This document shows positions 10,270 to 32,344 of a stretch of DNA of 40,372 nt, piece by piece. Under the pieces are notes generated by a model. It saw only the letters and a program-made list of their open reading frames with translations. It did no database searches and was not told where the DNA came from. Numbering within the stretch: the first letter of the stretch is position 1; the number at the start of each line of letters is the position of its first letter. The stretch is taken from assembly GCA_015488995.1 (NCBI GenBank), contig WFMQ01000149.1, positions 1 through 40,372 of the forward strand. The letters run 5' to 3'. The position numbers were made by a program, and so were the translations under genes. Source of the stretch: Nitratifractor sp. GTDB lineage: Bacteria; Campylobacterota; Campylobacteria; Campylobacterales; Sulfurovaceae.

Positions 10270-11760
10270 TCAGTACCCGCTGGCACCGATAAGATATGTG
10301 ATGTAGTGCATCAACGGCTGCACATAGAAGATCGATGCCACCGTCGCAAAGACAGCGATACCGATCACAATTTCAAGCGCAAGAGAGCGGTTGTTGTAGA
10401 CCGTCCGTGCTTGGTCGGCGGCCGGCATGAGAAACATATAGACGATGAGCTTCAAGTAGTAGTAAGCAGCAATGGCACTGTTGAGCCCCATGATGACCGC
10501 CAACCAAATGTATCCAGCATCCACCGTCGCACTGATGACGTAGAGTTTGCCCCAAAAGAGGCTAAAAGGCGGTACGCCGGTCAGTGAGAGCATGAAAATC
10601 GCCATGATTACCGCTGCGACCGGCTCGATGTGAATCATCCCAGCAAACTTGACATAGGGGTGGTGGTAGCGGACATGGTGTGTCTTGTCTTTGTGGCGGC
10701 TGACCCAGAGCAAGGCAAAGGCACCCAGGTTGGTGAAGAGGAACAGGGTGTAGTAGAGGAAGATACTGCTGTTAGCCTTGGTGGTATCGAGGGCAATGGC
10801 CGCCATCACAAATCCGGCATGGGAGATGGAGCTGTACGCCAACATCCGTTTGACATCGTTCTGCACCAATGCCATCATATTGGAGAGGGTCATGGTAATG
10901 ACGGCCATGGCGATGACAACGTTGCGTACGGTCTCGACCCCCAAGTCGATGTACATCCCCAGGACGCGTATCGCGACGACCATCATCGCAATCTTGGGGA
11001 CAATCGACATGTACCCAGCCATGGGAGACGCAGCCCCCTCATAGACATCCGGTGTCCATGTGTGAAAGGGGAAGAGGGAGACTTTGAACCCAATCGCTAC
11101 CATCAACATCATGGCGCCCCCGATGATGGGCACCATCATGCCAGGTTCACCGATCCGCTCTTGGAGGACTTTGGCGATGTCGTACAGTTCGACCGATCCA
11201 GTCACCGCATAGATGATGGCTGCACCCATGACGAAGAAACCAGCCGCCAGTGCCCCCATGGTGAAGTACTTAATAGCCGCTTCATGGGAGCCAACCGTGT
11301 TGTGGAGTGCGATCATGGTGTACAGAGCCAAGGATGCCGTCTCCAGTCCCACGAAGATCATGATGAGGTTGTCCGATGCGACCATAAACTGAAACCCCGC
11401 AATCATGAACAAGAAGAGAGCAAAATACTCCGGATACGAATACTCATGAAACCGCTTGGAAGTGAGTGCCAGGGGGATAAATAGCATCGAAGCGATGACG
11501 ATCAATAGCTCGCCGAGAATGGTCACCCCATCGATCATAACCACATCAAAGAAGCCCCGTTCGTTCAGGGTCAACCCAAGCGTCGCCCCCATATCGATGA
11601 AGAGCACGAGAATGGTCAGGATCACATACAGGGTCTTGTCAAGGTCTTTTTTGACCAGATCGATGATGAGGATACCCAGAGCACCGGCGATGGCAATGAG
11701 CATCGGCGAAAGGGTGATGAAATTCAACGAGGCCATATTGACTGAGATGGGCGCTAACAT
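10270..11760 (-). CDS. nuoN: NADH-quinone oxidoreductase subunit N
   Basis: 496 aa multi-TM antiporter-like subunit, last gene of the nuo operon. Confidence 0.95.
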   Translation of the reverse strand: MLAPISVNMASLNFITLSPMLIAIAGALGILIIDLVKKDLDKTLYVILTILVLFIDMGATLGLTLNERGFFDVVMIDGVTILGELLIVIASMLFIPLALTSKRFHEYSYPEYFALFLFMIAGFQFMVASDNLIMIFVGLETASLALYTMIALHNTVGSHEAAIKYFTMGALAAGFFVMGAAIIYAVTGSVELYDIAKVLQERIGEPGMMVPIIGGAMMLMVAIGFKVSLFPFHTWTPDVYEGAASPMAGYMSIVPKIAMMVVAIRVLGMYIDLGVETVRNVVIAMAVITMTLSNMMALVQNDVKRMLAYSSISHAGFVMAAIALDTTKANSSIFLYYTLFLFTNLGAFALLWVSRHKDKTHHVRYHHPYVKFAGMIHIEPVAAVIMAIFMLSLTGVPPFSLFWGKLYVISATVDAGYIWLAVIMGLNSAIAAYYYLKLIVYMFLMPAADQARTVYNNRSLALEIVIGIAVFATVASIFYVQPLMHYITYLIGASGY

Positions 11761-13286
11761 TACTGTGCCTCCTTTGTTCTTTTGCTGACGACAATGGTGT
11801 TTTTAGCCTCAGGAGTCTGGGCTTTTTCGTGCATGAAGCTCACCAAAGCCTTGACGCTGTTGTCGATCGGTTGCAGGACGGGTTTGGGATAGACACCGAG
11901 CCAGATGACGATGGCCACCAGCGGAATGAGCGCGGTCAACTCTTTGGCATCAAGATCTTTGAGCACTTTATTGGCTTCGTGAGTCACGGGGCCGAAAAAG
12001 GAGCGTTTGTAGAGGCTCAGCATGTACACCGCACCGAAGATGATCGACGTACCCCCAATCGCAGTCATGACGGGTGAAATCTTGAAGAATCCGGCCAGTG
12101 AGAGGTACTCACCGACAAAGCCCATGGTCAACGGCAAGCCGACCGAGGCCATCAGCATCACCCCAAAGATCAATGCGTAATTGGGCATGACCGATGCCAA
12201 ACCACCAAATTCGCTCATCAGTTTGGTGTGCCGTCGATCATAAATCACGCCAACGAGGAGGAAGAGCGCCCCGGAGACGATACCGTGAGAGAGCATGAAA
12301 AAGACCGATCCGCTGATCCCTTCAGCATTCATCGCAAAGATACCGAGGATAATCACCCCCATGTGTGAGACCGATGAGTAGGCAATGACTTGCTTCATAT
12401 CCTTCTGTGCATACGCCACCATCGCCGTGTAGACGATCATGATCAGAGCCAGGATCGCCACGGGGGTGATGTACATCACCGAAGCATCCGGGAACATCGG
12501 GAGGGAGAAACGGACGAAACCGTAGGTTCCCATCTTGAGCAAGACCGCTGCCAGGATGACCGAACCGACGGTCGGTGCCTGACCATGAGCATACGGCAAC
12601 CACGTGTGGAACGGAAACATCGGTACTTTGATCGCAAAGCCGAGGAAAAAGGCCCAGAAAAGCCACTTCTGCACCGAGATCGGCAACACCAAACTGTACC
12701 AATCCGTCAAGGCGAAACTCCAGCTGCCGGTCACCGACTGGTAGACATACGCCACGTACAGCATCCCCACCAGCATGATCAGCGATCCCGCAAAGGTATA
12801 GAGGAAAAACTTGACGGCCGCATAGAGACGCTTCTCGCCGCCCCATGCACCGATGATGTAGAGCATCGGTACCAAAGAGAATTCCCAAAAGAGGTAGAAG
12901 ATCACCGCATCCAATGAGACAAAGACCCCCACCATGGCTACTTCGAGGAAGAGCAACGTAAGGATCATGTTTTTGAGATCTTTTTTGACACTGAGGGCGA
13001 TGATCCCAATCAAGGTCATCAAGGTCGCCATGATGACGATGAAGAGACTGATCCCATCCACCCCTACATAGTAGCTGATCCCAAAGTCGGGTATGACGGC
13101 AATGCGCTTGACAAACTGCATCCCAGCATTGGCGGGATCGTACACAAACCACATCCAGAGGGAGAGGATAAATTCAACCGCCGCAACACTGATGCCGTAC
13201 GTACGGATGCTTTTTTCCGACACAACCAGTCCTAAGATCCCGGCGATCAACGGAAAGAAGATCAATACACTTAAAATATCGTTCAT
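11760..13286 (-). CDS. nuoM: NADH-quinone oxidoreductase subunit M
   Basis: Start set at MNDILSVLIFFPL; FPFHTWLPYAHGQAPTVGSVILA. Confidence 0.95.
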   Translation of the reverse strand: MNDILSVLIFFPLIAGILGLVVSEKSIRTYGISVAAVEFILSLWMWFVYDPANAGMQFVKRIAVIPDFGISYYVGVDGISLFIVIMATLMTLIGIIALSVKKDLKNMILTLLFLEVAMVGVFVSLDAVIFYLFWEFSLVPMLYIIGAWGGEKRLYAAVKFFLYTFAGSLIMLVGMLYVAYVYQSVTGSWSFALTDWYSLVLPISVQKWLFWAFFLGFAIKVPMFPFHTWLPYAHGQAPTVGSVILAAVLLKMGTYGFVRFSLPMFPDASVMYITPVAILALIMIVYTAMVAYAQKDMKQVIAYSSVSHMGVIILGIFAMNAEGISGSVFFMLSHGIVSGALFLLVGVIYDRRHTKLMSEFGGLASVMPNYALIFGVMLMASVGLPLTMGFVGEYLSLAGFFKISPVMTAIGGTSIIFGAVYMLSLYKRSFFGPVTHEANKVLKDLDAKELTALIPLVAIVIWLGVYPKPVLQPIDNSVKALVSFMHEKAQTPEAKNTIVVSKRTKEAQ

Positions 13287-13296
13287 TATTGGCTCC

Positions 13297-15189
13297 TTAG
13301 TTTTGCATCGCTGCGAAGAGAACCAGTGCGACCAGAACCAGCGCACCACCGCTCATGAGTTTGAGATAATCGGACAGATTTCCTGTCTGAATTTTTCGAC
13401 TTGAGTCACCACCATCCTTGATCGCTGTAGCGATACCATCGACGGTTGCATCGACAACCTGCTGATCAATCTCTTCCCAAAATGCGTGCGAAAGGGCCGC
13501 ATAGGGCTTGCTGAAGACATTTTCATACAGAATGGGGATGTAGTATTGGTTTGACAAGATACGGTACGGGAGGCTCTGCTCCACTTTTGCGCTGCGTTTG
13601 AGCCCCTTGGAGTATCGGAACCAAGCGAACACAATACCGCTCAACGCAATGGCCGTCGTCACAACCGTCAGGATCACAACGAAATGCTCCGTATGCTCAC
13701 TCATCTCATACGTCGGGAGGAAGTGGGTAATAAAGGCCACAAACTCATCTTTGTACCAACCGAAAATAACCGCCAACAAAGCCAACGGGGACATCGCCCA
13801 CAAGACATACTTGGGGACTTCGTGGGGGTGGAAGCCCAGCGGCTTGTAGCGCTCATCACCGGTAAAGGTGAGGAAGACTTGACGGAAGCTGTAAAAAGCG
13901 GTCAATCCAGCAGTGAACCAGAGGATGAGCCAGATCCCGTATGTGTGTTCATTGAATGCCACCTCCAGAATCGTGTCTTTGGAGAAGAACCCTGCCAGCG
14001 GCCAGATACCGGCCAAAGCGAGGGAAGCCAGTCCCATGTAGAGATAGGTCCAGCGCATGGCTTTTTTCAATCCACCCATCTTGAAGATGTCCAGCTCATC
14101 ATCCATGGCGTGCATGACGTTCCCCGCACCGAGGAAGAGGAGGGCTTTGAAAAACGCGTGAGCCGCAAGGTGAAACAATGCCACCCAATAGGCACCCAAG
14201 CCCGCAGCGGCAAACATGTAGCCCAGCTGTGAGAGGGTCGAATACGCAATGATCCGTTTGAGGTCACGGTTGACCAACGCCATCGATGCGGCGAAGATCG
14301 CCACGAAGGTTCCCAGTACAGCGATGAAGTAACTCACCTCAGGGATGGCCGAGTAGAGCGGGTTGGCACGGATGACGAGGTAGACCCCCGCCGTAACCAT
14401 CGTCGCAGCATGGATCAAAGCCGAGACCGGAGTGGGACCCTCCATCGCATCGGCCAGCCATGTGTGCAGTGGAAATTGTGCCGACTTGCCCATGGCTCCG
14501 ATGAAGAGGAAGATGCCGATGGTCACCAGCATTCCATGATCCATGCTCGGTACGGCGGCAAAAACATCTGCATACTGTAGTGAACCGATGTTCCAGTAAA
14601 TCAAGAAGATTCCCACCAACATCCCCAGATCGGCAACCCGATTCATGATAAACGCTTCATTGGCCGCCCACGAAGGGGAGATCGAGGGGTTGACATCCCG
14701 GGTCACGTCGGCCTTGTGGTACCAGAAGCCAATCAGGAGCCATGAACAGACCCCCACCCCTTCCCAGCCGATAAACAGACCGAGAAAGTTGTCGCTCATC
14801 ACCAAAACCATCATCGAAAAGACAAAGGCGGAGAGATAAGAGAAGAAGCGGTTGAAGCCCTTGTCGTGATCCATGTAGCCATTGGAGTAGACATGCACCA
14901 CCGTCGAGACCAGCGTCACGACGGTCATCATGACGGCGGTGACTTGATCGATATTAAACCCAAAGGGGATCGACATATCTCCTGCCTGGATCCAATCCAT
15001 CATGGTCACATGGACGGCCCCCACCTGAGACACATGGTTGAGCAAGATCACCGACGCGACAAAGGACACAAACAGCAGAGTCGAGGTGACGACACCCGTG
15101 ATCAAGGCTTTGGGACGCTGTGAAAACAGCGCGGCAAACAACGATCCCACCAACGGTGCAAACAAGGCTATGTATACGTATTTTTCCAT
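13297..15189 (-). CDS. nuoL: NADH-quinone oxidoreductase subunit L
   Basis: 630 aa; FPLHTWLADAMEGPTPVSALIHAATMVTAGVYL. Confidence 0.96.
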   Translation of the reverse strand: MEKYVYIALFAPLVGSLFAALFSQRPKALITGVVTSTLLFVSFVASVILLNHVSQVGAVHVTMMDWIQAGDMSIPFGFNIDQVTAVMMTVVTLVSTVVHVYSNGYMDHDKGFNRFFSYLSAFVFSMMVLVMSDNFLGLFIGWEGVGVCSWLLIGFWYHKADVTRDVNPSISPSWAANEAFIMNRVADLGMLVGIFLIYWNIGSLQYADVFAAVPSMDHGMLVTIGIFLFIGAMGKSAQFPLHTWLADAMEGPTPVSALIHAATMVTAGVYLVIRANPLYSAIPEVSYFIAVLGTFVAIFAASMALVNRDLKRIIAYSTLSQLGYMFAAAGLGAYWVALFHLAAHAFFKALLFLGAGNVMHAMDDELDIFKMGGLKKAMRWTYLYMGLASLALAGIWPLAGFFSKDTILEVAFNEHTYGIWLILWFTAGLTAFYSFRQVFLTFTGDERYKPLGFHPHEVPKYVLWAMSPLALLAVIFGWYKDEFVAFITHFLPTYEMSEHTEHFVVILTVVTTAIALSGIVFAWFRYSKGLKRSAKVEQSLPYRILSNQYYIPILYENVFSKPYAALSHAFWEEIDQQVVDATVDGIATAIKDGGDSSRKIQTGNLSDYLKLMSGGALVLVALVLFAAMQN

Positions 15190-16055: not shown

Positions 16056-16679
16056 TTAATAAGCCAGCGGCGTTTTTTTGATGTTTGTGTCCGCGTTGAC
16101 GGAGACCGATCCGTACCCGGGGAACTCTCTCTGGCTCTTCAACTGATCGATCGGGGTCAGCATGTCCTCAAACAAAGAGAAGCTTGCACGTTGTTCGCTG
16201 GCCGTCTCATAGCGTCCACCGTGGACGATCGCCAGCTCCGGGCACACTTCTGCACAATACCCGCAAAAGATACAGCGTCCGAAGTTGATGGTGTATTCAC
16301 TCACCTCTTTGCGTTGATTCTCTCCATAATGGGTGTCCATACGGATCGCATCGGCGGGGCAAATCTTTTCACAAAGTCCACAGCCGATGCAGCGATAGTG
16401 CCCACTCTCAAGCAGACGTTTCATCTCGTGAATCGCCCGATAGCGTGGTCCGATGGGCAACTTCTCAAATGGATACTTGGTGGTATGCATCTTACCAAAG
16501 AGCAGTGCCTTGAGCATCTCACGCAGCGTGACCTTGAGCCCGACCAATAGCTCGAGACTCAGGCTCCGACGCACCACTTGCTTGAACTGCCCCCACCCGG
16601 TAACCGGGGTCGGGTCGAGATCGAGCATCCGATAGTTTTGGGTTCCGACGTTGCGGTTTTTAAAGTGTTCTAAACTCAT
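16056..16679 (-). CDS. nuoI: NADH-quinone oxidoreductase subunit I (2x[4Fe-4S])
   Basis: CIGCGLCEKICPADAI and CIFCGYCAEVCPELAI. Confidence 0.95.
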   Translation of the reverse strand: MSLEHFKNRNVGTQNYRMLDLDPTPVTGWGQFKQVVRRSLSLELLVGLKVTLREMLKALLFGKMHTTKYPFEKLPIGPRYRAIHEMKRLLESGHYRCIGCGLCEKICPADAIRMDTHYGENQRKEVSEYTINFGRCIFCGYCAEVCPELAIVHGGRYETASEQRASFSLFEDMLTPIDQLKSQREFPGYGSVSVNADTNIKKTPLAY

Positions 16680-16688
16680 CGACTCTCC

Positions 16689-17675
16689 TTATACCATGAT
16701 CACGATGCCGGTGATAACGACATTGATAACTGCCAGCGGCATCAAAACTTTCCACGCCAACCACATGAACTGGTCGGGGCGCACGTGAGGCCAAGAAGCC
16801 CGTACCCACAACATCAGGAAGAACATGAATGCAATCTTGAGGATGATTGCCAGCCACCCGGGGATAAACCACAGATCGGTATACCCTCCGAGGAAGATAA
16901 TCGAAGCCAATACCGAGACGGTAATCATGTTGGCATACTCTCCGATGAAGAACATCCCCCAACGCATCCCGCTGTATTCGGTCGCGTACCCGGCGATGAT
17001 CTCTGCTTCATTTTCCAACAGATCAAATGGTGTCCGGTTGGTCTCGGCAAATCCAGCGATCAGGAAAAGGACAAATGCCACCGGCTGCATGAACACCATC
17101 CAGGGATGGGTTTCGTTGTAGTGGTTGAAATCAATCAGCGAAAGAGAACCAACCATCATGATCGGCGCGAGCAGTGACAATCCAGTGACCACTTCATAAC
17201 TGATAAACTGTGCTGCCGTACGTGCCGCACCGATGATCCCCCATTTGTTGGCCTGAGACATCCCCGCCAGCAGGGGACCGTAGAGTCCAGCGGCCATCAT
17301 CCCGAGGACAAAAAGGATCCCAATGTTGACATCGGCAGCGATCGAAGGAACGAAAATCCCAAAGATTGTAAAGTCGGGAAAGACCGGTACAGCCGATAGC
17401 GCAATAAACGCCGTGGCTGCGGTAATAACCGGTGCCACCATAAACATCAACTTGTTGGCATTTTGGGGGATAAAGTCTTCTTTGGTGAAGAGCTTGATCC
17501 CGTCCGCTGCGATCTGGAGCAAACCGTACGGTCCGACATGCATCGGCCCGAGACGACGCTGCATAAAAGCCAGCACTTTCCGCTCAATGTAGGTACCAAA
17601 CCCGGCAATCGCCGAGATGATCGCCAGGATCAGGATCGCCTTGATAATGATGCCCAAATATGTTACTTCCATCAT
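16689..17675 (-). CDS. nuoH: NADH-quinone oxidoreductase subunit H
   Basis: 328 aa; ERKVLAFMQRRLGPMHVGPYGLLQ, AETNRTPFDLLENEAEIIAGY. Confidence 0.96.
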   Translation of the reverse strand: MMEVTYLGIIIKAILILAIISAIAGFGTYIERKVLAFMQRRLGPMHVGPYGLLQIAADGIKLFTKEDFIPQNANKLMFMVAPVITAATAFIALSAVPVFPDFTIFGIFVPSIAADVNIGILFVLGMMAAGLYGPLLAGMSQANKWGIIGAARTAAQFISYEVVTGLSLLAPIMMVGSLSLIDFNHYNETHPWMVFMQPVAFVLFLIAGFAETNRTPFDLLENEAEIIAGYATEYSGMRWGMFFIGEYANMITVSVLASIIFLGGYTDLWFIPGWLAIILKIAFMFFLMLWVRASWPHVRPDQFMWLAWKVLMPLAVINVVITGIVIMV

Positions 17676-20137
17676 GAACCCTTTCGTAATGTTACTGTCG
17701 CGTATCGGTTGTCACCAAACAGCGCATAAATGTTTTTGTCACTCACAAAATCGGGAATTTCGACAATAGCACCGGAGATGCGTTCTTCAGCGATCACATC
17801 GAGCTCCAACGACCCCTTCGCAAATTCCACGACGACACGCTCACCCAACTCCTCGGCACGTGCTGGTGAAGCGTAGAGGGCAAAGGCTTCAAAAATCTGG
17901 TGGGATTTGTCGGTGAAGTCGTTGAACTGACGCTGGGGATTACAGCGATACGCGAGGGTGCCTTCGAGGATTATACCCTCGTCAAATGCCTCAATTTCGC
18001 TCGCACGCTTCGGAACCGCAGGAACATCCAATGGATAGCCCCGATGCTCCTGTCCATCGTTGGTGTAGCCATTGGGAAGGGCATCAAAATCAACCGCACG
18101 GAATCCACGATCGGTGGGCAGTGATGCGGTCCAATCGATGGTCAATGTTTTCCCCAGACCCAATCCGTTCATCAGGTCGTTCAGCTCATAGCCACCGTAC
18201 TCAATGGCAGCATTGGTAGGAACCACCCGCTTGTTCATAGTCGTCAGTGTCCCTTCCTGCTGGTTGAATGCGGGCATATCGAGATCTCCCGTACCCAGAG
18301 CCGAGAGGGCAAAGTCGCCGGGCTCATTGTATCCCACGACGTACCCCTCCGCCTCAGCATCGAGATCACAGAGGAGGGCGACGCCGAGTGAGTTGCTCTT
18401 GGGGGGTACCATCGCCAGCTTCATACCGCATGCTGTCTCGACGAGTGCCGCCAGCCGTGCCAAGTTTTCAGCGCGGGGATGGAAATAAAGGTCTTCACCG
18501 AGGATCAGGGCAAATGACTCTTTTTTCTTCATCATTTTGTCGAAGAGATCCCCGAAGTTTTCTGCATCAGCCCCGAGTGCCTCGACCAGACCGTTGTGGT
18601 CATATTCGACCTCTTTTTTGACAGTTTTCGGTACCTTTTTGGTCACCTCTTTCTCTTCGCCTGTCTCTGGATCCACCTGTGTCGTCGTGACCGTCTCCAT
18701 CACTTTTTCGGTGACGGTCTTCGTCCGGGTACTGTGGTAGCTCTCAATCGTCTTCCGTACCAATTCGGGCAGTGCCTCGCGGTTGGCAAAAAGATCGAGG
18801 ATCACATACATCGCCAACTCTTCTTCACCGGGTTTGTGCTCAAACGTCGCAACGCTTTTTCCAAAGGTGGGGATCAGGGTATCACCCACCGGATGGAAAT
18901 AGAATCCAGCACCCTTGTTCATCTTCTGAATGTTGTTAAAGACATAACGGACGTTGGGGTTGTCATTGCGGAGTTTGGTGCCGACGGTGATGACAAAGTC
19001 GCTCTCCTTCATGATCGTCTTGAAATCGTCCGGGTAGATCCCCTGCCCCGATGCCTCCCCGTAATAGCGGAGGAAGGATTGAAGGGCGCGTGCTTCGGGG
19101 TTGACCAGCTTGACCCCTTGTTTCTCTTTGAGAGTCTGGAGCATCAACGCCTCTTCGTTGGTGATGACGGAGTTGAAGCGGATGATGTCGGCCTTTTTCA
19201 CTGCGGCAATGGCGCGATCAAAGGCTGGCTTCTCTTTGGTGACGTGGCTGTTTTGGTAATCATATCCAAAACGCCCTGCCCCGCAGAGCGACTGATAGTT
19301 CCACTCGTTTTTGACCCGATAGATCTTCTCTTCAGGGTTCTCGATGGAGGTATGCTTGGTCTCGTAGTAGATGTGGCACCCGCTGGAGCAGTGGGCGCAG
19401 GTAGCCGGGATCTGTTTGAGCTCCCACGCGTTGGTCTGATAGACGAAGTCTTGCTCCGTCAAAGCGCCGACCGGACACACCGCTGTACACTCTCCACAAT
19501 CCGAACAGTCGGTGTATTCGGTGCCGTTGCTCGGGACGATGACCGACTTTTGGAGTTTGTTCCACATGCTGTAGGCATCTTTGGGCATCGTCTCTTTGTA
19601 GGCTTTGTCGAGGGGATCGCCGCCACGGGGGCCGGTCTTGATCGCGGCATCCCCGATCATATCCTTACAGACCGTCACACACCGTTCACACACGATGCAC
19701 AGACCGGCATCGTAGTGGAGAACCGTGCTCCAGTCGGCTGTACCGCGTTTGGTATCGGGGATCGCGTAGTGCTGCGCATCCACCCCAAGCTCAAGCGTAT
19801 AGTTCTGGAGTTCACATTCGCCACTCTGGTCACACACGCCGCACTGAAGCGGGTGGTTGACATCGTAGACTTCCATGATGGCGCGACGCTCTTCGAGGAT
19901 CGCTTCATTTTGGGTGATGACGTTCATTCCATCCTTGGCTTTGGCATTGCACGAATAGACGCGTTTGTCATCGGCTTCGACCAGACAAATTCGGCATGCC
20001 AGTGTGGGTGAACAGCGGGTCAGATAGCAGATCGCCGGGATAAAAATCCCATGGGCGCGTGCCACGTTGAGGATGAAGTCCCCCTCCTGTGCTTGACACG
20101 TAATACCGTCGATTGTGATTGTGATATTCTTACTCAT
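17672..20137 (-). CDS. nuoG: NADH-quinone oxidoreductase subunit G, paralogue 1
   Basis: N-terminal [2Fe-2S] and 4Fe-4S motifs (HPLQCGVCDQSGEC, CIVCERCVTVC, CSDCGECTAVCPVGAL, CAHCSSGC...C). Start set at MSKNITITIDG (or MMSK, 20140). Confidence 0.93.
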   Translation of the reverse strand: MSKNITITIDGITCQAQEGDFILNVARAHGIFIPAICYLTRCSPTLACRICLVEADDKRVYSCNAKAKDGMNVITQNEAILEERRAIMEVYDVNHPLQCGVCDQSGECELQNYTLELGVDAQHYAIPDTKRGTADWSTVLHYDAGLCIVCERCVTVCKDMIGDAAIKTGPRGGDPLDKAYKETMPKDAYSMWNKLQKSVIVPSNGTEYTDCSDCGECTAVCPVGALTEQDFVYQTNAWELKQIPATCAHCSSGCHIYYETKHTSIENPEEKIYRVKNEWNYQSLCGAGRFGYDYQNSHVTKEKPAFDRAIAAVKKADIIRFNSVITNEEALMLQTLKEKQGVKLVNPEARALQSFLRYYGEASGQGIYPDDFKTIMKESDFVITVGTKLRNDNPNVRYVFNNIQKMNKGAGFYFHPVGDTLIPTFGKSVATFEHKPGEEELAMYVILDLFANREALPELVRKTIESYHSTRTKTVTEKVMETVTTTQVDPETGEEKEVTKKVPKTVKKEVEYDHNGLVEALGADAENFGDLFDKMMKKKESFALILGEDLYFHPRAENLARLAALVETACGMKLAMVPPKSNSLGVALLCDLDAEAEGYVVGYNEPGDFALSALGTGDLDMPAFNQQEGTLTTMNKRVVPTNAAIEYGGYELNDLMNGLGLGKTLTIDWTASLPTDRGFRAVDFDALPNGYTNDGQEHRGYPLDVPAVPKRASEIEAFDEGIILEGTLAYRCNPQRQFNDFTDKSHQIFEAFALYASPARAEELGERVVVEFAKGSLELDVIAEERISGAIVEIPDFVSDKNIYALFGDNRYATVTLRKGS

Positions 20138-22409
20138 CATCGTTCCCTGTCGTTTCAAATTTCAGGTGGGCAAATCGATAAGAGGATAGCGCAAAAGCAC
20201 TTAATCCCCTGTCCCAAGTGGGGTGAATCGCCACGGTACCTTTGAGCGTCGTATCGATATGAAACACACGTTCATACGAGACGCCATCCTGCTCAAATCG
20301 GATGGTTTGCCCCTCAGCGATCTTTGCCGCCGCTGCAAACTGCGCCGATCCTTTGAGGCATCCCTTTTCGGGCTCCCGCATGCTTCGCGCGGTGAAGGGC
20401 GAGAAAGCATTGCCCTCATTGCACCGATAGATCAGCACCCCGTCGTAGGTGGGCAAATCATCTGGCTCCGTGTAGGTTTCATTGGCCGGACACGCGTGAG
20501 CCTCAAGGAGATACCCCCGATACTCTGTACCTATGGCATCGAAGTAATCGGGCAAATCATCGAAGGCAACCGCCTTGAACCCTGCCTCCGCAGGGAGGTT
20601 TGGCGTCTGATCAATCGTATAGCGACTGCCGATCCCAAAGGCATGGAGCAGTTCGTTGAGGGTGTAGCCACCATACGGAAGTGCCGGATGGGTCGGCACC
20701 ACCCGCTGATCGACGGTGACCAACGTCCCCTCCTGCTGGTTGAGGGCCGGCATGTCGAGGTCTCCCTCCCCCAGAGCCGAGAGGACGAAGTCCCCTGGAG
20801 CATTGTAGCCGACGGTGTACCTTTCGGCACCCTCACTGAGGGTACATATCTCGGCGACCCCCCGTGCGTTGGTCGCGGGAGGGACGATCAGCACGTTGAA
20901 GTCTCCGTATTTCTCAATCGCAGCGATCCAGCGGGCGATGCTCTCAGACTCGGGGTGCGTGTAGAGATCCGCACCGACGATGAGGGTAAACCCTTGTTTT
21001 TTCCACAACGACAGTGCCAGTGCCTCAAGCTCCTCTTCGCCCACATTGCTCTCCGCACTCAGGTTGCCGATGTCCAGCTCGTCAAGTGTCGATTGCAATG
21101 CTTCGGGAAGGGCTTTGCCGTGCAACAATGTGGCGGCCAACAAAGCGGCCACCCCCTCTTCGCTCCCCACTTCGTATTTGACAAATTGGGTGACGAGGTT
21201 CTGCATGCGGGCATCTTCCATCGGGTGGAAATACGCGATACGCGCTTGATGGCGTTTGCTTGCCATGGCCATGTGGTATTTGACCATCGGATTGTCGTCG
21301 TAGATACGGGTACCGAGTACCACGATCGCACGGGAGTGTGCCACATCATCCAGCGACGCGCGGTAGAGGGTGGTACCGCTCACCTCTCGATAGGCGCGCA
21401 GGAAACGCTGATACCCATGGGCATCGTCGCAGACCAGTTTGACATCATGGGCAGTACGGAATTGCTCCAGCAGTAGTGCTTCTTCATTGGTGATCGTCGC
21501 TGAAAATCGAAGGGTATCAGCTTGCTTGAGAGCGGCAACGGCGCGATCAAAGGCCGCCGCGTCTTGTGTCGCCTCTTGATTGGCATAGTCAAAGGCAAAA
21601 CGCCCTGCCCCGCACAGTGAGCTGAACTCCGATTCATTGGTCACACGATAGATCTTCTCCTGTGCCGTGTCAATGCTCTCATGCTTCACTTCATAATAGA
21701 GCTGACATCCGCTCGAACAGTGGGCACAACTGGCCGGAATCCGGTTCATCTCCCAGGCGTTGGCAGAGTACTTGAAATCGGTACTCACCAACGCACCCAC
21801 CGGGCAGACCGCCATGCACTCACCGCACTCGGCACATTGCTGGTCGAGCTTGGCGTTGATGATGGTTGATTTGTATCCGCCGACGCTGATCTGGAGGGCT
21901 TCGTCTCCGACCACTTCGTTGCAGACGTGGACACATTTTTCACAGAGGATACAGAGTGCGGGATCGTAGGAGATAAATCCCCAGTCCTGCACCGGGCGAT
22001 GCTGATCGCGTGCTGTAAAGGTCTGTTCGTCCACGCCAAATTCTACCGTTTTGCCTTGCAGGTCACACTCGCCACTCTTGTCACACACTCCGCACTCGAG
22101 GGGGTGGTTGACATCGTAAAGCTTGGTGATGTTCTGCCGCTCGCGATAGAGATCATCTGAGTGGGTGGTGATGACCGCACCGTCCACCGCTTTCTCCTGG
22201 CAGGAGAGGATCATCCCTTCGACGTTTTCGACTTCGACCACACACATCCGACAGGAAGCGATGGGCTCGACTTTGGAGAGGTAGCACATGGTGGGGATGT
22301 AGATGTCGTTGGCACGTGCGACTTGGAGGATCGTTTGCCCCCATTCGCCTCGGCACACCTGACCATCGATCGTGACGGTAATGGTTTTATTGGGTTCACG
22401 TACACTCAT
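20130..22409 (-). CDS. NADH-quinone oxidoreductase subunit G, paralogue 2
   Basis: Start set at MSVREPNKTITVTIDG; same ligand motifs as paralogue 1 (HPLECGVCDKSGEC, CILCEKCVHVC, CAECGECMAVCPVGAL, CAHCSSGC...C). Confidence 0.92.
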   Translation of the reverse strand: MSVREPNKTITVTIDGQVCRGEWGQTILQVARANDIYIPTMCYLSKVEPIASCRMCVVEVENVEGMILSCQEKAVDGAVITTHSDDLYRERQNITKLYDVNHPLECGVCDKSGECDLQGKTVEFGVDEQTFTARDQHRPVQDWGFISYDPALCILCEKCVHVCNEVVGDEALQISVGGYKSTIINAKLDQQCAECGECMAVCPVGALVSTDFKYSANAWEMNRIPASCAHCSSGCQLYYEVKHESIDTAQEKIYRVTNESEFSSLCGAGRFAFDYANQEATQDAAAFDRAVAALKQADTLRFSATITNEEALLLEQFRTAHDVKLVCDDAHGYQRFLRAYREVSGTTLYRASLDDVAHSRAIVVLGTRIYDDNPMVKYHMAMASKRHQARIAYFHPMEDARMQNLVTQFVKYEVGSEEGVAALLAATLLHGKALPEALQSTLDELDIGNLSAESNVGEEELEALALSLWKKQGFTLIVGADLYTHPESESIARWIAAIEKYGDFNVLIVPPATNARGVAEICTLSEGAERYTVGYNAPGDFVLSALGEGDLDMPALNQQEGTLVTVDQRVVPTHPALPYGGYTLNELLHAFGIGSRYTIDQTPNLPAEAGFKAVAFDDLPDYFDAIGTEYRGYLLEAHACPANETYTEPDDLPTYDGVLIYRCNEGNAFSPFTARSMREPEKGCLKGSAQFAAAAKIAEGQTIRFEQDGVSYERVFHIDTTLKGTVAIHPTWDRGLSAFALSSYRFAHLKFETTGNDDE

Positions 22410-22410
22410 A

Positions 22411-24420
22411 TCACACCACCACCATCGAAATATAATAACAACGCATGCAGCGCTCCGCTTCGGCAATCGCCTCTTCCCCGGTGAAACCGAGATTGACCTC
22501 TTTGCTGTTGGTCTTGCGTTCATCGGTCTCGAGTTTCTCGCTCACTTGACGCGGGAGACCCGGCATCCACCCAGTGATTGTTTCGTTTTTGTCGTACACT
22601 TTGAGCTTCTGGAGGTGATCCTCCATGATCTCTTCATCGGCGAGGCTCACTTCTCCGTCGTAGATATAGCGACTGATGACCGAGGCGGCTCGCTTGGCCT
22701 GACCGACCGCATTGACGATGGTCATTGGGCCATACTCACAGTCTCCCGCTCCGAACAGACCGGGACGGGAGGTCATGTAGTCCTTGCCGTTGGTCAGGAT
22801 GGTGTTCCAGCTGGTGAGCTTGACATCCCACTCCTCGGGGAGCAACTGCAAATCCGCAGCCTGCGAAACAGCGGGGATCAAAAAGTCGGTTTCGATCTCG
22901 AAGTCCCCATCTTCGATCTTGACCAGCTGAGGCCGACCGCCATCCGGGTCGGGAACCAGTTCAAATTTGTTAACTTTGAGGCGTTTAAGTACATCATTTT
23001 CATCTACGATCTTTTCGACGGCGGAGTGGAAGATAAATTCCACCCCTTCTTCGACCGCTTCGTGGTACTCCTCGTACGTTGTGTTGCGAATGATGGTTTT
23101 TTCATCCCGACGGTAGAGCATGACGACTTTCTTGGCGCCTTCACGGACGGCGCAGCGGACGACGTCCATGGAGGTAAATCCTCCCCCGACGCAGACAACG
23201 GTCTTGTCTTTGAGATCCTCCGATGCAGAAGAGCCGATACGATACTTGGTCCAAAGGTTGACTTTGTCAAGCATATCAATCGCCCCCCAGTACCCTTGGA
23301 TCTCTGAGCGTTCATTGTCTGCGCGTACTTTCTTGGAGAGGCGCGTACCAAAAGCCAGCAACGTGGCATCGTATTCGGCATCGATCTCCTTGAGGCGTTC
23401 GGCATCCACCCGATGGTTGGTGTGCACGGTGACGGCCTCCATGGAGGTGACCAATTCGATGTCTTGGTTGTACTTCTCGATCGGCATGCGGTATTGGGGG
23501 ACTCCCACGGCGACTTCCCCGCCCAGTACAGGCAATTCTTCGAAGATGTCAACCTTGATCCCCTCAAGTGCCAGGTAGTATGCGGCGGTCAATCCAGCAG
23601 GTCCCGCACCAATGATGGCTACTTTTTTCCCATCATTGCGCAGTGGCTTGGGCTCCATAGGGTGGAGATACCCCAACCCATGATCAGTCTCATAATCGGC
23701 ACCGAGACGCTTGAGCTCCATGATGGAGATGGGCTCATCGAGATTGGTGCGCCGGCATGCTGTCTCACAGGGATGGGGGCACACACGCCCACAGGTATGT
23801 GCCAGCGGCATCGTCTGACGGGTCGCCTGAAGCGAATCGGCAAACTGCATGTCCCGCACCCCTTCGATGTACGCCGGGATATCGACGTGGGAGGGGCAGG
23901 CATCGGTGCAGGGAGCCGTCACTTTGGCGATGTAGGTTGTATCCGCCTCGTAGTGGATGGACGGTTTCTGCTCGAGGATGCACGTGTCAAACTGCTCTTT
24001 GTAGTGATCCATCAGATCGAGGATGGGCTTGGGGACGGTACGTCCAATCTCGCACTTGGAGGTGAGCATCATGGTCTGGCTCACTTCCCGTAAGTGTTCG
24101 ATGTCTTCAAATGCCCCTTCCCCCCGGGCGATTTTGTCCAACAAGTCGTAGAGTATCCGTCCGCCCCAGCGCCCCGGTGCACACCGTCCGCATGCCTCAG
24201 AATATTTCTGATACTGTGACGCATATTCGGTCGCCAGACGCACGGCATCGATCTCCTCTTCGAAGATCGCGACACCGTCCCAACCGACAAACGCTTTGGA
24301 TCGGGTATCGGCGGTATACTCTTCGGGCAATTTGTAAGCCGATTCAACACACGCCTCGGGATCTTTGCCCCGGTTGTCGATCTGCTCACCGCGCCACGTC
24401 GAGAAAACCACGTGACTCAT
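22411..24420 (-). CDS. NuoF C-terminal fragment fused to a GltD-like FAD/NAD(P) oxidoreductase
   Basis: 669 aa; N-terminal EACGRCAPGRWGGRILYDLLDKIARGEG resembles the NuoF N3 region; then CTDACPSHVDIPAYI...CGRVCPHPCETAC, VAIIGAGPAGLTAAYYL (FAD), VVCVGGGFTSMDVVRCAVREGAKKVVMLYRRDE (NAD(P)). Confidence 0.88.
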   Translation of the reverse strand: MSHVVFSTWRGEQIDNRGKDPEACVESAYKLPEEYTADTRSKAFVGWDGVAIFEEEIDAVRLATEYASQYQKYSEACGRCAPGRWGGRILYDLLDKIARGEGAFEDIEHLREVSQTMMLTSKCEIGRTVPKPILDLMDHYKEQFDTCILEQKPSIHYEADTTYIAKVTAPCTDACPSHVDIPAYIEGVRDMQFADSLQATRQTMPLAHTCGRVCPHPCETACRRTNLDEPISIMELKRLGADYETDHGLGYLHPMEPKPLRNDGKKVAIIGAGPAGLTAAYYLALEGIKVDIFEELPVLGGEVAVGVPQYRMPIEKYNQDIELVTSMEAVTVHTNHRVDAERLKEIDAEYDATLLAFGTRLSKKVRADNERSEIQGYWGAIDMLDKVNLWTKYRIGSSASEDLKDKTVVCVGGGFTSMDVVRCAVREGAKKVVMLYRRDEKTIIRNTTYEEYHEAVEEGVEFIFHSAVEKIVDENDVLKRLKVNKFELVPDPDGGRPQLVKIEDGDFEIETDFLIPAVSQAADLQLLPEEWDVKLTSWNTILTNGKDYMTSRPGLFGAGDCEYGPMTIVNAVGQAKRAASVISRYIYDGEVSLADEEIMEDHLQKLKVYDKNETITGWMPGLPRQVSEKLETDERKTNSKEVNLGFTGEEAIAEAERCMRCYYISMVVV

Positions 24421-24653
24421 CAGGTACCCTTTTTCTTGACGACAATCGCCCAGTCCACTTCGTTGAACTTGAGCGAATTCATCAGCGTATGGCCGTGTTC
24501 TTTGACCACGTCAGCACTCGTCTGGATCGCAGAGAAATCTCCCACTTCAAAAAGGAAGATCCCCACCTCTTCGGCACGGAGACCGGTATCGATCAGTTCA
24601 ACCATTCGGTCATAAAAATCATCATGAAGATGGCGCAAATCGTATCGTTTCAT
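24420..24653 (-). CDS. NuoE-replacing small subunit (Campylobacterota-type), no cysteines
   Basis: 77 aa, positioned between nuoD and the NuoF-like gene; 1-bp-scale coupling with the downstream gene; contains no Cys. Confidence 0.8.
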   Translation of the reverse strand: MKRYDLRHLHDDFYDRMVELIDTGLRAEEVGIFLFEVGDFSAIQTSADVVKEHGHTLMNSLKFNEVDWAIVVKKKGT

Positions 24654-24665
24654 CTGGACTCCTTA

Positions 24666-25892
24666 TTAGCGGTCAACTTCGCCAAAGACGATGTTGGTAT
24701 TTCCGATGATGGCAACCACATCCGCAAGGTACGTACCGGGGAGGATGTGTTGCAAAATTCCCGTGTGGAAAAAGCTGGGTGCCCGGATCTTGAGGCGATA
24801 CGCATACGGCTCGCCCTCCGAACGGATAAAGAAGCCCAACTCCCCTTTGGGGGATTCGGTGGGGGCATACACGGTCCCTTTGGGCGGGCGCATCCCCTGA
24901 GTGACGAGGACAAAGTGCTGCATCAGCGCATAGTTCTGTGTCATGATCTCTTCTTTGGGAGCCGAGATGTATTTGGGGTTATGCGCCATGATTTGCGGCT
25001 CGGTTTTACGGTGCATCGGAATGAGCTGGCGGAGGATTTTAACCGATTCCTTCATCTCCTCCATGTAGAGGCGATAGCGGCCGTAGCTGTCGTTGCGGTC
25101 ACTGACAGGGATGTCAAAGTCCAATTCACCGTAGAGTTCGTACGGCTCCTCTTTGCGGACATCGTATTGGATACCTGATCCACGCAGCAGGACACCGGTA
25201 CACCCCCAGCTGAGGGCATCTTCGGGGGTGACGACCCCCACATCCTCGAGACGCATCTTCCAAATACGGTTCTCCGTCAGAAGATCTTCGTAAAGTTTAA
25301 TCTGCTCCGGAAGTTTATCGATATACGTACTGAGCTGCTCCAGCCATCCGGCAGGCAAGTCAAGGGGAACCCCTCCAATCCGTACCGCTGAGTGTGTCAG
25401 ACGCGCCCCACAGTAGTCTTCGACCAAATCCATCGCAAACTCCCGCTCCCGAAAGGCATAGAGGAAGACCGACATCGCCCCCACATCGAGTGCATGGGTC
25501 GCGAGGAAGAAGAGGTGTGACATGATCCGGTTGAGCTCAAGCAACATCGTCCGGATCACTTGCGCCCGACGGGGCACCTCCAACCCGATCAATCGCTCGA
25601 CCGAGAGAGCAAACGCATAGTTGTTGGAGGTCGATGCGATGTAATCAAGACGATCCGTGGTGGGGAGAAATTCATTGTAGATCATATTTTCAGCCATCTT
25701 CTCGACCCCACGGTGGAGGTAACCGATATCGGGATAGGCTTTGACCACTTTCTCTCCATCCAATTCCAACACCAGACGGAGCTGTCCATGTGCCGAGGGG
25801 TGCTGGGGGCCGAAGTTGATCACCATGGTGTTATCATCCCGCTCGAAATTGAGGTTCTCAAAAAACGGTTTCAGTTTGTTAGGCTCTTGCAT
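24666..25892 (-). CDS. nuoD: NADH-quinone oxidoreductase subunit D
   Basis: 408 aa; [35 protein letters not shown]. Confidence 0.97.
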
Positions 25893-25900: not shown

Positions 25901-26689
25901 CTACTTTCGTGTATCCAGGACTTCAGAGCCCGTGGTGTAGTTGACCAGTATTTGCTTACTGTACTCGATCGGTTGTTCGGTCTCACTCTCGCCATGCTCT
26001 GCACCAAAGGGCACTTCGTACCCCACACGTGAGAACCGCTGAGAATCGTAGCGGTCGATGCGTCCCGGATCTCGGTTTTCCGGCCCGATCACATCGCGAT
26101 GTTCTTTGCCGAAGATTTTATCCACTTCGTACCAAGCCGCATGTTCATCCCCTTGGAGCGGATACGTCTTGCGCAGCGGATACCCCACCCAATCCTCGGG
26201 CATGATGATCCGCTTGAGATAGGGGTGGTTGTTGACGGTGATACCAAACATATCGTACATCTCCCGCTCGGCAAAGTTGGCCATCGCATAGAGGGGGACA
26301 ATGCTCTCGATCGCTTGCCCCTCTTGAATACGGGTGAGGAGGCGGGTGCGTTTGGCTTTTTTGAGATTGAGCATCTGATAGAAGACTTCAAATTCTCCAT
26401 CTTGCGCGAGATAATCGATCGCACTCAGCTCAGAACACATCGCATAATCACACGTGTTTTTGAGCACCTCCAGTGCGGCGATGTTCTCCTCGGGACGGAT
26501 GTGGATCACCAACTGACCCAGCTCTACATAGGCATCAAGCACCTCCACCGCTTCGTTCATCGCCTGGTACACGGCGGCGAAATGGCTCTCCTCCTCAACC
26601 GATTCACGCGGTACGCGAGGGGCCACCCAAAAGCGGTCGGTGTATTTGGCTTTGCCTTGTACATTATCTTTGGGGGTATATTTTCGCAT
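25901..26689 (-). CDS. nuoC: NADH-quinone oxidoreductase subunit C
   Basis: 262 aa; [40 protein letters not shown]. Confidence 0.95.
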
Positions 26690-27201
26690 TAGACAAACCT
26701 CTGCTTGGTGTTTTTGTTCATGTTGCCCGATTCGCGGTTGATCTTCTTCTGAAGCATCATCACGGCATATTGCAGTGTCTCAGGGCGGGGAGCACATCCA
26801 GGGAGATAGATGTCCACCGGGACGATCCGATCCACCCCTTGCACCGTGGCATAGGTGTTGAACATTCCGCCGGTGTTGGCGCAGCTTCCCATGGAGATGA
26901 CCCATTTGGGATCGGGCATTTGATCGTAGAGACGCCGGGCAAACTCGGAGTGCTTCTTGCTCAGTGTCCCCGCGAGGATCAACACATCCGACTGACGGGG
27001 CGAGGCACGGAAGATCACCCCCATCCGGTCAAAGTCAAAACGACTCGCACCCGTGGCCATCATTTCGATCGCACAACACGCGAGACCGTAGGTCATCGGC
27101 CAGAGGGAGTTGGCGCGTCCCCAGTTGAGCAGTTTGTCTACCGTGGTCAGCGCCACGGGCAAGCCTCCAGTCGAGGCGTAATTTACTTCATGCTGTGCCA
27201 T
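26689..27201 (-). CDS. nuoB: NADH-quinone oxidoreductase subunit B
   Basis: Start set at [46 protein letters not shown]. Confidence 0.96.
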
Positions 27202-27572
27202 TCGAGGGCTCCTTTCTTCCAAGCGTAAATAAATCCAATGGTAAGGAGGACAATAAAAAGAATCATCTCCGCAAAACCGAACCAACCGAGGAGTTTGAAA
27301 TCGATCGCCCACGGAAACATGAAGATAATTTCCACATCAAACAGAATGAACAGCAGTGCCAATAAATAGAATTGCACCGAAATAGTGTTGGGCTGCTTGT
27401 TGGGCAGCGGCCCACACTCATAGATCGACATTTTGAGGCGTTCGGTGTCGAGGCGGGAGAGCCTCCGACTCACCAATCGTGCCAGAAACAGCGTCGCAGG
27501 AAACGCGATCCCTGTCAAAGCGAGCAAGACAAACACACCAAAGTAGGGATGATTGGTCAAAGCATGCGTCAT
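27183..27572 (-). CDS. nuoA: NADH-quinone oxidoreductase subunit A
   Basis: 129 aa; [39 protein letters not shown]. Confidence 0.95.
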
Positions 27573-27711: not shown

Positions 27712-28947
27712 TTATCCCTCCGGCAAACCAATCGAAAAGACATTGTCGCCCGTAGACGCATCGTACCGATACCGAAAATCGCAGCCGAGTTTCTGCGTGA
27801 TATTATAGACGATGTAGAGTCCCAAGCCAAAGCCATGACTCCGCTTCTCCTCTTGAGAAAAAGGCTCAATGTAAAAATCAAAATCCTCTTTGAGGGGGTC
27901 GCCCTTGGAACGAATCTCAAGGGTATTCCCCTCTCCGACCAACGTGACATGCGTGTCGGAGCTGTATTTGATGCCATTATCCATGAGGTTTTTGAGTGCG
28001 AGTGCGAGGAGCTTGGTGTCGGTATGAATCGGGCGATCCTCTATGCGAATGGTGTACCGATTGGGGTCAGTCAGGAGGATTTTTTCGGTTCGCTGCACGA
28101 CATCGTAGAGGAACACATCCTCCAGTGTCGGCTGGAAATTGTGCATGGTGATCCGCTCGACATCGGCCAAATCGGAGATGAGTTCATTCATCCGCTCAAA
28201 TGCCTTGATGAGAAAACCCCGGCTCATCTCATCATCAATAGTCTCGGCGATGATGCGCCCCTTGGTAATGGGGGTTTTCAGCTCATGCATGATGTTGCGC
28301 ATGAAGAGGTTTTTTGAGCTCATCAGCTGATGGATATGACCAATCGCCCGATCAAAACTCTGGGCAATCTTCCCAATCTCGTCGTGACTGTCGTAATCGA
28401 TCTTGACATCGAGATCCCCCTCGGCAAACTGCTCGATTTGCTTGTGGAGTTTTTTGAGTGGGTAGAGTTTTTTGAGCACCATGTAGTACAGCGCCAGCAA
28501 AAGCAAAAACAGGACGGTTCCTACCACGGTCACGATTTCGGTCGTCCGTTTGTTGGCCCGGTTGTCGACCAGCATCATCCGGTAGCCTGGCATATCGACG
28601 TAAATATAGTATCGACTCTTCCCCACTTTGAATATCCGCACATCCGGTGCGGCTGGGTCGCCAACGAAGAGCAAAGTCTTCCCCGTCTTTTGCACCTCTT
28701 TCCCGATCCGATCTGCTGAGATTTTCCGCAACGCAAAATCATGAAAAAATTTCTGGATTTTTTTCTCTGGAGGGGAGAGGCGCAGGTTGTATGCCAGGGT
28801 TTCGGCGATAAATTTGTACCGCTCGATATCCTGTATGCGGCTCTTCTCTTGACTCGTGGTCATAAAATAATACAATGTCGCACTCAAAATCGCCAACGCC
28901 ACCGTAAACAGTGTATGGATAAACGTCGTAACTGAGAGATGCTTCAC
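27712..28947 (-). CDS. ArsS-like sensor histidine kinase
   Basis: 411 aa; two TM segments, HAMP-like region, H-box MHELKTPITKGR, N-box LKNLMDNGIKYS, G-box HGFGLGLYIV. Confidence 0.92.
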   Translation of the reverse strand: MKHLSVTTFIHTLFTVALAILSATLYYFMTTSQEKSRIQDIERYKFIAETLAYNLRLSPPEKKIQKFFHDFALRKISADRIGKEVQKTGKTLLFVGDPAAPDVRIFKVGKSRYYIYVDMPGYRMMLVDNRANKRTTEIVTVVGTVLFLLLLALYYMVLKKLYPLKKLHKQIEQFAEGDLDVKIDYDSHDEIGKIAQSFDRAIGHIHQLMSSKNLFMRNIMHELKTPITKGRIIAETIDDEMSRGFLIKAFERMNELISDLADVERITMHNFQPTLEDVFLYDVVQRTEKILLTDPNRYTIRIEDRPIHTDTKLLALALKNLMDNGIKYSSDTHVTLVGEGNTLEIRSKGDPLKEDFDFYIEPFSQEEKRSHGFGLGLYIVYNITQKLGCDFRYRYDASTGDNVFSIGLPEG

Positions 28948-28955
28948 GTCAGAGC

Positions 28956-29636
28956 CTATACGCGATCGGTCAAGAGATACCCCACACCCCGTACCGGTTT
29001 GATGTAAACATGATCGGGATCGGTTTGGGCGATTTTGTGTCGAATACGGCTGATGATCACATCAATGTTTTTGATGGAGCTCTCATCGTCGATGTGCTCA
29101 CTCTCATACAGAAGTTGCTCACGAGAGACTGAGCCATTCTTCTGCTGTATCAGCACCGAAAGGACATCAAACTCGGCAGCGGTCAAGTCCAAAGGTTGCC
29201 CACGAAACTGAATCACCCTCCCTTTGGTATCCAGTGAAAAGATCGCTTCCTCTTCAGATGCCTTCCCCTCCTGTTGTGCACCGGTACGGCGCAAAATCGT
29301 CTTGATCCGGGTCACCAATTCGCGCGGGTCGTATGGCTTGGGCATGTAGTCATCGGCTCCGCGCTCCAGACCGATCACTTTGTCGGTGATGTCATCCCGT
29401 GCCGAAGAGATGATGATCGGGACATTCGATTCGGCACGGATCTTCTCAATCACCTCCAGCCCATCCATCCCTGGCAACGTCAGGTCGAGGATCACGAGAT
29501 CCACGTCATTCTGGGTCAGCATCGAGAGGCCGAGGTACGGATCTTCGGCACTGATCACCTCCATGTCGTATTTCTCGAGATAGCTGGTCAGGATCATCGA
29601 CAATTCGGGATCGTCTTCGATAATCAATATCTTCAT
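28956..29636 (-). CDS. OmpR/ArsR-like response regulator
   Basis: MKILIIEDDPELS receiver, LDLTLPGMDG, winged-helix C-terminus VDVIISRIRHKI...VRGVGYLL. Confidence 0.92.
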   Translation of the reverse strand: MKILIIEDDPELSMILTSYLEKYDMEVISAEDPYLGLSMLTQNDVDLVILDLTLPGMDGLEVIEKIRAESNVPIIISSARDDITDKVIGLERGADDYMPKPYDPRELVTRIKTILRRTGAQQEGKASEEEAIFSLDTKGRVIQFRGQPLDLTAAEFDVLSVLIQQKNGSVSREQLLYESEHIDDESSIKNIDVIISRIRHKIAQTDPDHVYIKPVRGVGYLLTDRV

Positions 29637-29703
29637 CGGTAGGCTCCACAATCTTTTGATGTATCATACCATGGATAGCATAACAATGGTATAATACGCT
29701 TAT

Positions 29704-31335: not shown

Positions 31336-32344
31336 AAAGCCCCTCCTGTGCCTGAAGCGGGGGTGTCAGACGAAACAGCGCATAGCTCTTCTCAGTCGCG
31401 ACCCGGCCGCGTGCCGTGCGCTCGATGTACCCATTGGCAATCAGATACGGCTCCACCACATCCTCGATCGTCCCCTCATCCTCGCTCAAGGCCGCACCGA
31501 TGGTGCTCAGGCCCATGGGTTTGCCTTTGGCAGAGATCAAGAGCTCAAGCAGGCGGATGTCCTGTTCATCGAACCCAATATCATTCACCCCCAGCTCCTC
31601 CAGCGCGTAGCGAGTACGCGCCAGCCCGATGGTCGGCTCATCGGATACTTCGGCGAAGTCCCGCACCCGACGCAGCAGACGCAACGCAATCCTCGGTGTC
31701 CCCCGTGACCGCCGGGCGATCTCGTGTGCGGCATCGTTTTGGGCAGGTTTGTCCAGTTTGTGTGCCGCTTGCTCGACGATTGTCCCCAGCTCCGTGGGGC
31801 TGTAAAATTGCATCCGGAAGTGCATCCCAAACCGTTCCCGAAGGGGATTGCTCAACATCCCGGCACGCGTAGTCGCCCCAATGAGGGTAAAGCGGGGGAG
31901 ATCAATCTTGACCGTCTGTGCCGCTGGGCCGGAGCCGATGATGATGTCGAGACGGAAATCCTCCATCGCCGGATAGAGGATCTCCTCGATCGCCGGGCTC
32001 ATCCGGTGGATCTCATCGATGAAGAGGATATCCCCCTCCTCGATGTTGGTCAACAAGGCAGCGAGGTCTCCCGATTTTTCGATCATGGGTGCGGCGGTGG
32101 TCTTAATGTTGGCTCCCATTTCGGTAGCGATGATATTGGCGATGGTAGTCTTGCCCAGTCCCGGAGGGCCGAAAAAGAGGATATGATCAAGTGCCTCACC
32201 CCGCTTACGGCTTGCCTCGATGAACACTTTGAGGTTTTTCTTGATCTTCTCTTGCCCAATGTACTCATCCCATGAGCTCGGACGCAGACTCAGCTCATAC
32301 GACGACTCCCCCTCGAACTTCTCGATCTCAACCATCCGTTCCAT
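31328..32344 (-). CDS. ruvB: Holliday junction branch migration DNA helicase RuvB
   Basis: [54 protein letters not shown]. May instead start at M4 (32335). Confidence 0.97.

Follow-up and report, generated by a model that had tools for sequence, protein, structure and literature searches.

The window, a stretch of 40,372 nucleotides from a Nitratifractor sp. contig, carries a nuo operon on its minus strand that runs from nuoA (27572) to nuoN (10270) in the order nuoABCD-X-fusion-G1-G2-HI..LMN, as assigned from open reading frames with Pfam and NCBIfam profiles (Table 1). Complex I is the NADH:quinone oxidoreductase of textbooks, and profile matches place all of its core genes – those for NuoA-D together with H, I and L-N – in this single operon. 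Between nuoD and the first nuoG lie two genes, encoding proteins of 77 and 669 residues, and, as a first-pass annotation had proposed from the letters of the DNA, neither is a canonical nuoE or nuoF. NuoE (PF01257, the thioredoxin-like [2Fe-2S] subunit) is absent from the operon by Pfam search, as is a NuoF with the FMN domain (PF01512), SLBB and the four cysteines of cluster N3; what is present of NuoF is PF10589 with three of the four cysteines. The stop and start codons of the 77-aa gene and the 669-aa fusion gene overlap as TGATG, and the NuoG1 ATG at 22409 is 1 nt past the fusion TGA, a spacing on both sides of the fusion gene that indicates tight coupling within the nuo operon.

Table 1. 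Genes and protein features of the nuo operon, with positions in the window and the basis of each assignment
Feature	Position	Strand	Basis
nuoA	27183..27572	-	PF00507
nuoB	26689..27312	-	PF01058; ORF as listed, real start probably further in
nuoC	25901..26689	-	NF006304, 2e-109
nuoD	24666..25892	-	TIGR01962, 9e-181
NuoX, 77 aa, no Cys (HP1264/Cj1575c family)	24420..24653	-	PF16514, 1e-38, 1-74/74 of profile
NuoF(C-term)-GltD fusion, 669 aa, whole gene	22411..24420	-	ORF, Pfam, NCBIfam, homologue alignment, AF2 model, PDB folds
NuoF C-terminal Fe-S remnant, residues 74-145	23986..24201	-	PF10589 NADH_4Fe-4S, 5e-19
GltD-type two-[4Fe-4S] domain, residues 168-247	23680..23919	-	PF14691 Fer4_20, 6e-23; C171, C175, C210, C214, C218, C222, K237, all invariant in 34/34
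FAD/NADP(H) domain, residues 265-575	22696..23628	-	PF07992 Pyr_redox_2, 7e-27; GAGPAG, R311, GGGFTSMDVVR...YRR (R437, R438)
C-terminal ligand segment ERKTNSKEVNLGFTGEEAIAEAERCMRCYY (C658, C661)	22432..22530	-	HMMER domain 1 of 4ylf_B and 5vj7_A; StnC/NfnABC alignments
NuoG1, 759 aa from ATG 22409	20130..22409	-	Cys sets N1b, N5 (H-Cys3), N4, one extra ferredoxin-type cluster, N7
NuoG2, about 822 aa	17672..20140	-	NF006305, 1070 bits
nuoH	16689..17675	-	PF00146, 2e-107
nuoI	16056..16679	-	Fer4 dicluster
nuoL, nuoM, nuoN (proton-pumping antiporter-like subunits)	10270..15189	-	PF00361 in 3/3

The 669-aa protein joins the C-terminal part of NuoF to a complete GltD-like body and has no FMN domain, an architecture that had been recognized at first pass and is borne out by Pfam and NCBIfam profile searches. 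Neither PF01512 nor SLBB is detected in it with Pfam, and it matches only positions 294-408 of the 410 in the NuoF profile TIGR01959, i.e. the last 115. Thirty-two homologues align with it at 51-84% identity with more than 150 invariant columns, and the GltD-cluster cysteines C171, C175, C214, C218 and C222, together with C658 and C661 of the C-terminal RCMRC, are invariant in 34/34 sequences. In the NuoF remnant the N3 ligands C77, C80 and C123 are kept and the third cysteine is replaced by an invariant glycine (G83), the CGxCxPC motif of NuoF reading CGRC[AT]PG in all 34 fusions, the window included. The AF2 model of the single chain has a pLDDT of 81.6, with low confidence at the cluster segments (residues 165-177, 215-221 and 660-669), and its fold matches in the PDB are NfnABC, StnC and NfnB. 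A one-off fusion or an assembly artefact is ruled out by the presence of the same gene order in 34 loci, and the protein is not a displaced small subunit of GOGAT, because relatives encode a separate GltD of ~468 aa near gltB.

Among solved structures, the GltD-NuoG subunits of Nfn-ABC (9bov, 9n5u) and StnABC (8oh5) come closest to the fusion in both sequence and fold, and NfnB is next. The HMMER alignment with 8oh5_C is gapless over the two-cluster domain, and K237 and R311 of the fusion, which align with K170 and R239 of StnC, are invariant in all 33 aligned sequences; the alternative, StnC C114, is missing from the fusion, which has an invariant I181 there, and NfnB has a Glu at the position of K237. 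By HMMER, the C-terminal RCxxC segment has homologues at the N-terminus of NfnB and after the Rossmann domain of StnC, and on this alignment it most likely supplies the two cluster ligands that GltD and NfnB carry N-terminally. A YRR after the second dinucleotide (GxG) motif is read within the family as a sign of NADPH; in the fusions this YRR is invariant and no acidic residue ends the second strand, which suggests, short of proof, that NADPH is used. StnC itself is a non-bifurcating conduit from NADPH through FAD and two [4Fe-4S] clusters to a NuoG-type chain, and depends on Lys170 and Arg239 (PMC10482914).

The fusion thus resembles StnC of the Sporomusa StnABC complex and its Nfn-ABC counterparts in having a GltD-like NADPH/FAD domain with two [4Fe-4S] clusters, the post-Rossmann RCxxC ligand segment, the Lys ligand position, the FAD-site Arg and a NuoG-type chain to feed. 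In those complexes, however, a soluble NuoG-like protein houses the GltD domain as an insertion, and its electrons go on to a NuoF-like bifurcating module, whereas here the domain is joined to a NuoF remnant within the operon of a membrane-bound, proton-pumping complex I. With the canonical NuoEFG input module of E. coli and Thermus the fusion shares the NuoF C-terminal Fe-S domain, but the complex encoded in the window is without the FMN and SLBB domains and the N1a-bearing NuoE, has one N3 ligand fewer, and has a second NuoG. The NADP-dependent formate dehydrogenase of Moorella has a beta subunit (FdhB) that is likewise NuoF-like and GltD-like and serves a NuoG-like catalytic subunit with NADP, although that enzyme is a soluble formate dehydrogenase and not complex I. 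A NuoF_C-GltD protein is also encoded in Collinsella aerofaciens (WP_195568673.1; 32% identity to the fusion over 594 aligned positions), with the same three-domain order, the C-terminal RCxxC and a neighbour with a NuoG-like N-terminus; it differs from the fusion in its soluble hydrogenase setting and in keeping four of four N3 cysteines. Its gene adjoins those for a group A [FeFe] hydrogenase and a ferredoxin-like protein (L189:5755-10494, NZ_OY725717.1), and the locus probably encodes an NADPH-linked hydrogenase.

The 77-aa protein, NuoX, has no cysteine and so cannot carry cluster N1a, as had been pointed out, but the accompanying proposal that it replaces NuoE is not supported. It belongs to an unrelated fold (PF16514) and matches PDB 2lxr (E 2e-22), and PF16514 is found in 333/398 Campylobacterota genomes and in 0/14 controls; NuoX is therefore neither a degenerate NuoE nor peculiar to this genome; nearly every complex I of this family in Campylobacterota has it as an accessory protein. 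One fusion-less locus encodes a PF16514 protein identical to the H. pylori 2lxr chain over 75 residues. The H. pylori homologue HP1264 is reported in a review to bind FMN (PMC6269979), and the 77-aa protein possibly carries FMN here.

Of the two NuoG proteins, NuoG2 is the one common to all sampled Campylobacterota nuo loci. NuoG1, with its N1b and N5 cysteines, is encoded in every fusion locus that covers that gene, whereas the fusion-less loci (n=18) have only a cluster-free NuoG1 remnant, the gene after PF16514 encoding 240-339 aa and being followed by a single NuoG. Loci therefore have both the fusion and the Fe-S half of NuoG1 or neither, which argues for the two acting as one electron-input unit. 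In three of 31 NuoG1 proteins (L048, L063 and L069) the cysteines of one ferredoxin-type cluster are lost together – C201, C230 and C233 in window numbering, and C236 in two of the three – while N1b, N5 and N4 are kept, so that this cluster is not essential to the electron wire. Cluster N7 of NuoG2 was considered as a marker of the fusion state (24/28 fusion and 4/18 fusion-less loci) and dropped, as it tracks clades.

The short protein of the fusion-less loci (e.g. L083:6596-7444 and L078:2022-3038, among related loci L078-L095) corresponds to Cj1574c and HP1265, which have been termed a NuoF replacement or NuoY (PMC6682613; PMC4178425). The first-pass annotation had treated Cj1574c as the counterpart of the fusion, and the comparisons place it elsewhere. 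A NuoY profile matches NuoG1 columns 389-794 with an hhalign probability of 100 (E 2e-65) and NuoG2 at E 4e-26, and has no relation to the fusion (probability 0.1), which rules out a shrunken fusion; BLASTP aligns NuoY with the C-terminal half of NuoG1 at 39% identity over 161 aa (E 2e-30), NCBIfam assigns it to NuoG, and its AF2 model (pLDDT 88.6) has a molybdopterin-oxidoreductase fold, the hits including E. coli and Mycobacterium NuoG chains. NuoY is the cluster-free C-terminal half of NuoG1, unrelated to NuoF or to the fusion. The complex I of C. jejuni and H. pylori thus shares with that of the window its operon context, the PF16514 protein and NuoG2, but is without the fusion and has NuoY instead of a full-length NuoG1; in the window the fusion and a full NuoG1 take the place of NuoY.

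The fusion had been presented as a special feature of this stretch of DNA, whereas it is the usual arrangement in roughly half the genera sampled: in a survey of one genome per genus across 67 Campylobacterota genera, long frames (641-735 aa) with PF10589 occur in 34. The loci compared here are the PF16514 neighbourhoods of 33 of these 34 genomes plus the window, and the carriers include Nitratifractor (96% identity), Sulfurovum, Sulfurimonas, Sulfuricurvum, Hydrogenimonas, Nitratiruptor, some Arcobacter and a few Helicobacteraceae. On the NuoG2 tree the fusion state needs six changes, five of them forced. The fusions of the Arcobacteraceae-like group f6 (L045, L049, L050 and L067) nest with those of group f1, while their NuoG2 proteins do not (p-AU 2e-74). 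Because of this conflict, transfer of the input module is also possible, and simple repeated loss of the fusion was set aside as the full history. We found no earlier account of the fusion in the open-access literature searched, and it may have been noticed elsewhere.

The first-pass annotation had looked to a canonical nuoE/nuoF pair elsewhere in the genome as evidence against its assignment of the fusion. Such genes do occur, as parts of a second, complete complex I. In the window's own genome the start of another contig (C30; L009:3-9985) encodes a canonical NuoF followed by nuoG, H, I, J, L, M and N, and the end of a further contig (C41; L010) carries nuoA-B-CD; in a genome of the same genus (G401; L185:6018-11807) nuoA-B-CD-E-F-G are contiguous, with a PF01257 NuoE and a complete PF01512 NuoF. 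Contamination is ruled out by 88-91% identical copies in same-genus genomes as well as by that contiguous arrangement, and the NuoG of the second complex is present in about 24/151 genomes of the family. Sulfurospirillum multivorans is a known case of an organism with two forms of complex I (PMC11238625). Because the canonical pair lies in a separate operon the assignment of the fusion is not refuted, although the GltD form is not this genome's only route.

Across the fusion genomes, 25/34 have no NuoF FMN domain (PF01512) anywhere, and in 16/34 neither a PF01512 protein nor a long-chain flavodoxin was found, so that no candidate partner other than the fusion (or ferredoxin) is left in these genomes. 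Neither the window's assembly (74.5% complete) nor the same-genus genome G401 (95% complete) yielded a long-chain flavodoxin. An apparent tie between flavodoxin and loss of the fusion (flavodoxin in 16/18 NuoY and 16/34 fusion genomes, Fisher p 0.006) was dropped, as phylogenetically independent pairs gave p = 1.

We interpret the operon, with a probability of roughly two in three, as encoding a proton-pumping complex I in which the NuoE/NuoF NADH module has been swapped for an NADP(H) port, most likely run in reverse. The original suggestion, a GltD-type flavin as the port for NAD(P)H, is the best reading of the sequence, the relatives of known function (StnC and NfnABC) being NADPH enzymes. 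The StnC-like GltD body would exchange hydride between NADPH and FAD, and single electrons would then move through two [4Fe-4S] clusters, a Lys-ligated proximal cluster followed by a distal one, with one of the two completed by the C-terminal RCxxC segment. The fusion is predicted to dock on NuoG1 through its retained NuoF C-terminal domain, and electrons would pass between the fusion and NuoG1, between NuoG1 and NuoG2, and on through NuoI/NuoB to quinone, coupled to proton pumping by NuoL, NuoM and NuoN. For lithoautotrophs that live on H2 or sulfur the likeliest net flow would be the reverse, with proton-motive force driving electrons from menaquinol to NADP+ to make NADPH; where H2 or sulfur supplies the electrons for menaquinone reduction, reverse flow is the economical reading. 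For Nautilia, a partial complex I working in reverse has already been proposed as a source of NAD(P)H (PMC2628731). The domain content, the invariance of the ligands, the coupling of the genes in the operon, the constant pairing of the fusion with a full-length NuoG1 and the distribution are observed, whereas the preference for NADP over NAD, the order of the carriers, the docking on NuoG1 and the direction are parts of the scheme that we infer. Recurrence of the NuoF_C-GltD architecture beside a NuoG-type [FeFe] hydrogenase in Collinsella supports reading the fusion as a port, while the missing N3 ligand of the NuoF remnant and the low model confidence at the cluster segments weigh against it.

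Alternatively, the complex could be fed by reduced ferredoxin or flavodoxin, as proposed for C. jejuni, with the fusion serving as a side port that exchanges with NADP(H); NADPH would then be formed by the complex instead of being its chief donor. Flavodoxin use is reported for the C. jejuni complex, whose other subunits are homologous (PMC4178425; PMC6682613); PF16514 is common to the fusion and flavodoxin types, and GltD-type proteins can move electrons from NADPH to low-potential clusters or ferredoxin and back (PMC8097209). Nonetheless, we think this unlikely, as 18/34 fusion genomes have no long-chain flavodoxin detectable at E 1e-10, and the flavodoxin-type complexes have neither the fusion nor the Fe-S half of NuoG1, from which it follows that their donor site is not on the fusion or NuoG1; ferredoxin may still be a donor.

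GltD-like proteins that use NADH do exist, and the best NCBIfam match of the fusion is just 'NAD(P)-binding protein', such that the complex could be another NADH:quinone oxidoreductase with FAD in place of FMN. The odds of this seem poor, given that the nearest solved relatives, StnC and NfnB, bind NADPH, that the invariant YRR and the second strand without a terminal acidic residue speak for the same cofactor, and that the separate canonical NADH-type complex I in the genome would make such an enzyme redundant. Least credible is bifurcation in the manner of the homologous NfnB, with one NADPH electron going to quinone via complex I and the other to the ferredoxin that rTCA organisms need in reduced form, since the Glu ligand position of NfnB is an invariant Lys in the fusion, as in the non-bifurcating StnC, and the operon shows no gene of NfnA or StnA/B type.

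If the NADP(H) port is real, this widespread form of complex I would change the view of reducing power for the reductive TCA cycle in vent and sediment Campylobacterota, the source of which was raised as an open point for Nautilia. The analysis also gives the long-standing puzzle of Helicobacter and Campylobacter a concrete structural reading, in which a NuoG remnant (Cj1574c/HP1265) occupies the NuoF position; a flavodoxin docking site should therefore be sought on NuoX or NuoG2, and not on a NuoF substitute. These relationships suggest that the stripped-down complex I of these genera is a reduced relative of the fusion type. More tentatively, and at somewhat less than even odds, there may be a phylum-wide class of complex I that acts as an NADP(H):menaquinone oxidoreductase by way of an FAD/GltD port and two NuoG proteins in series, and that lithoautotrophs run in reverse for NADPH; the flavodoxin-fed complexes of Campylobacter, Helicobacter, Arcobacter and Sulfurospirillum would be a stripped form of it, with NuoY as a cluster-free NuoG1 stub.

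Two further features of the window lie upstream of the operon. Translations of positions 27712-29651 identify genes for a histidine kinase and a response regulator directly upstream of nuoA and in the same direction, and the pair is a possible regulator of the nuo operon. Farther along, positions 32344-37093 form a low-GC island (33% vs about 53%) encoding a 667-aa type II/III-like DNA methyltransferase and a 918-aa protein with a weak restriction-endonuclease match, which looks like a horizontally acquired restriction-modification system.
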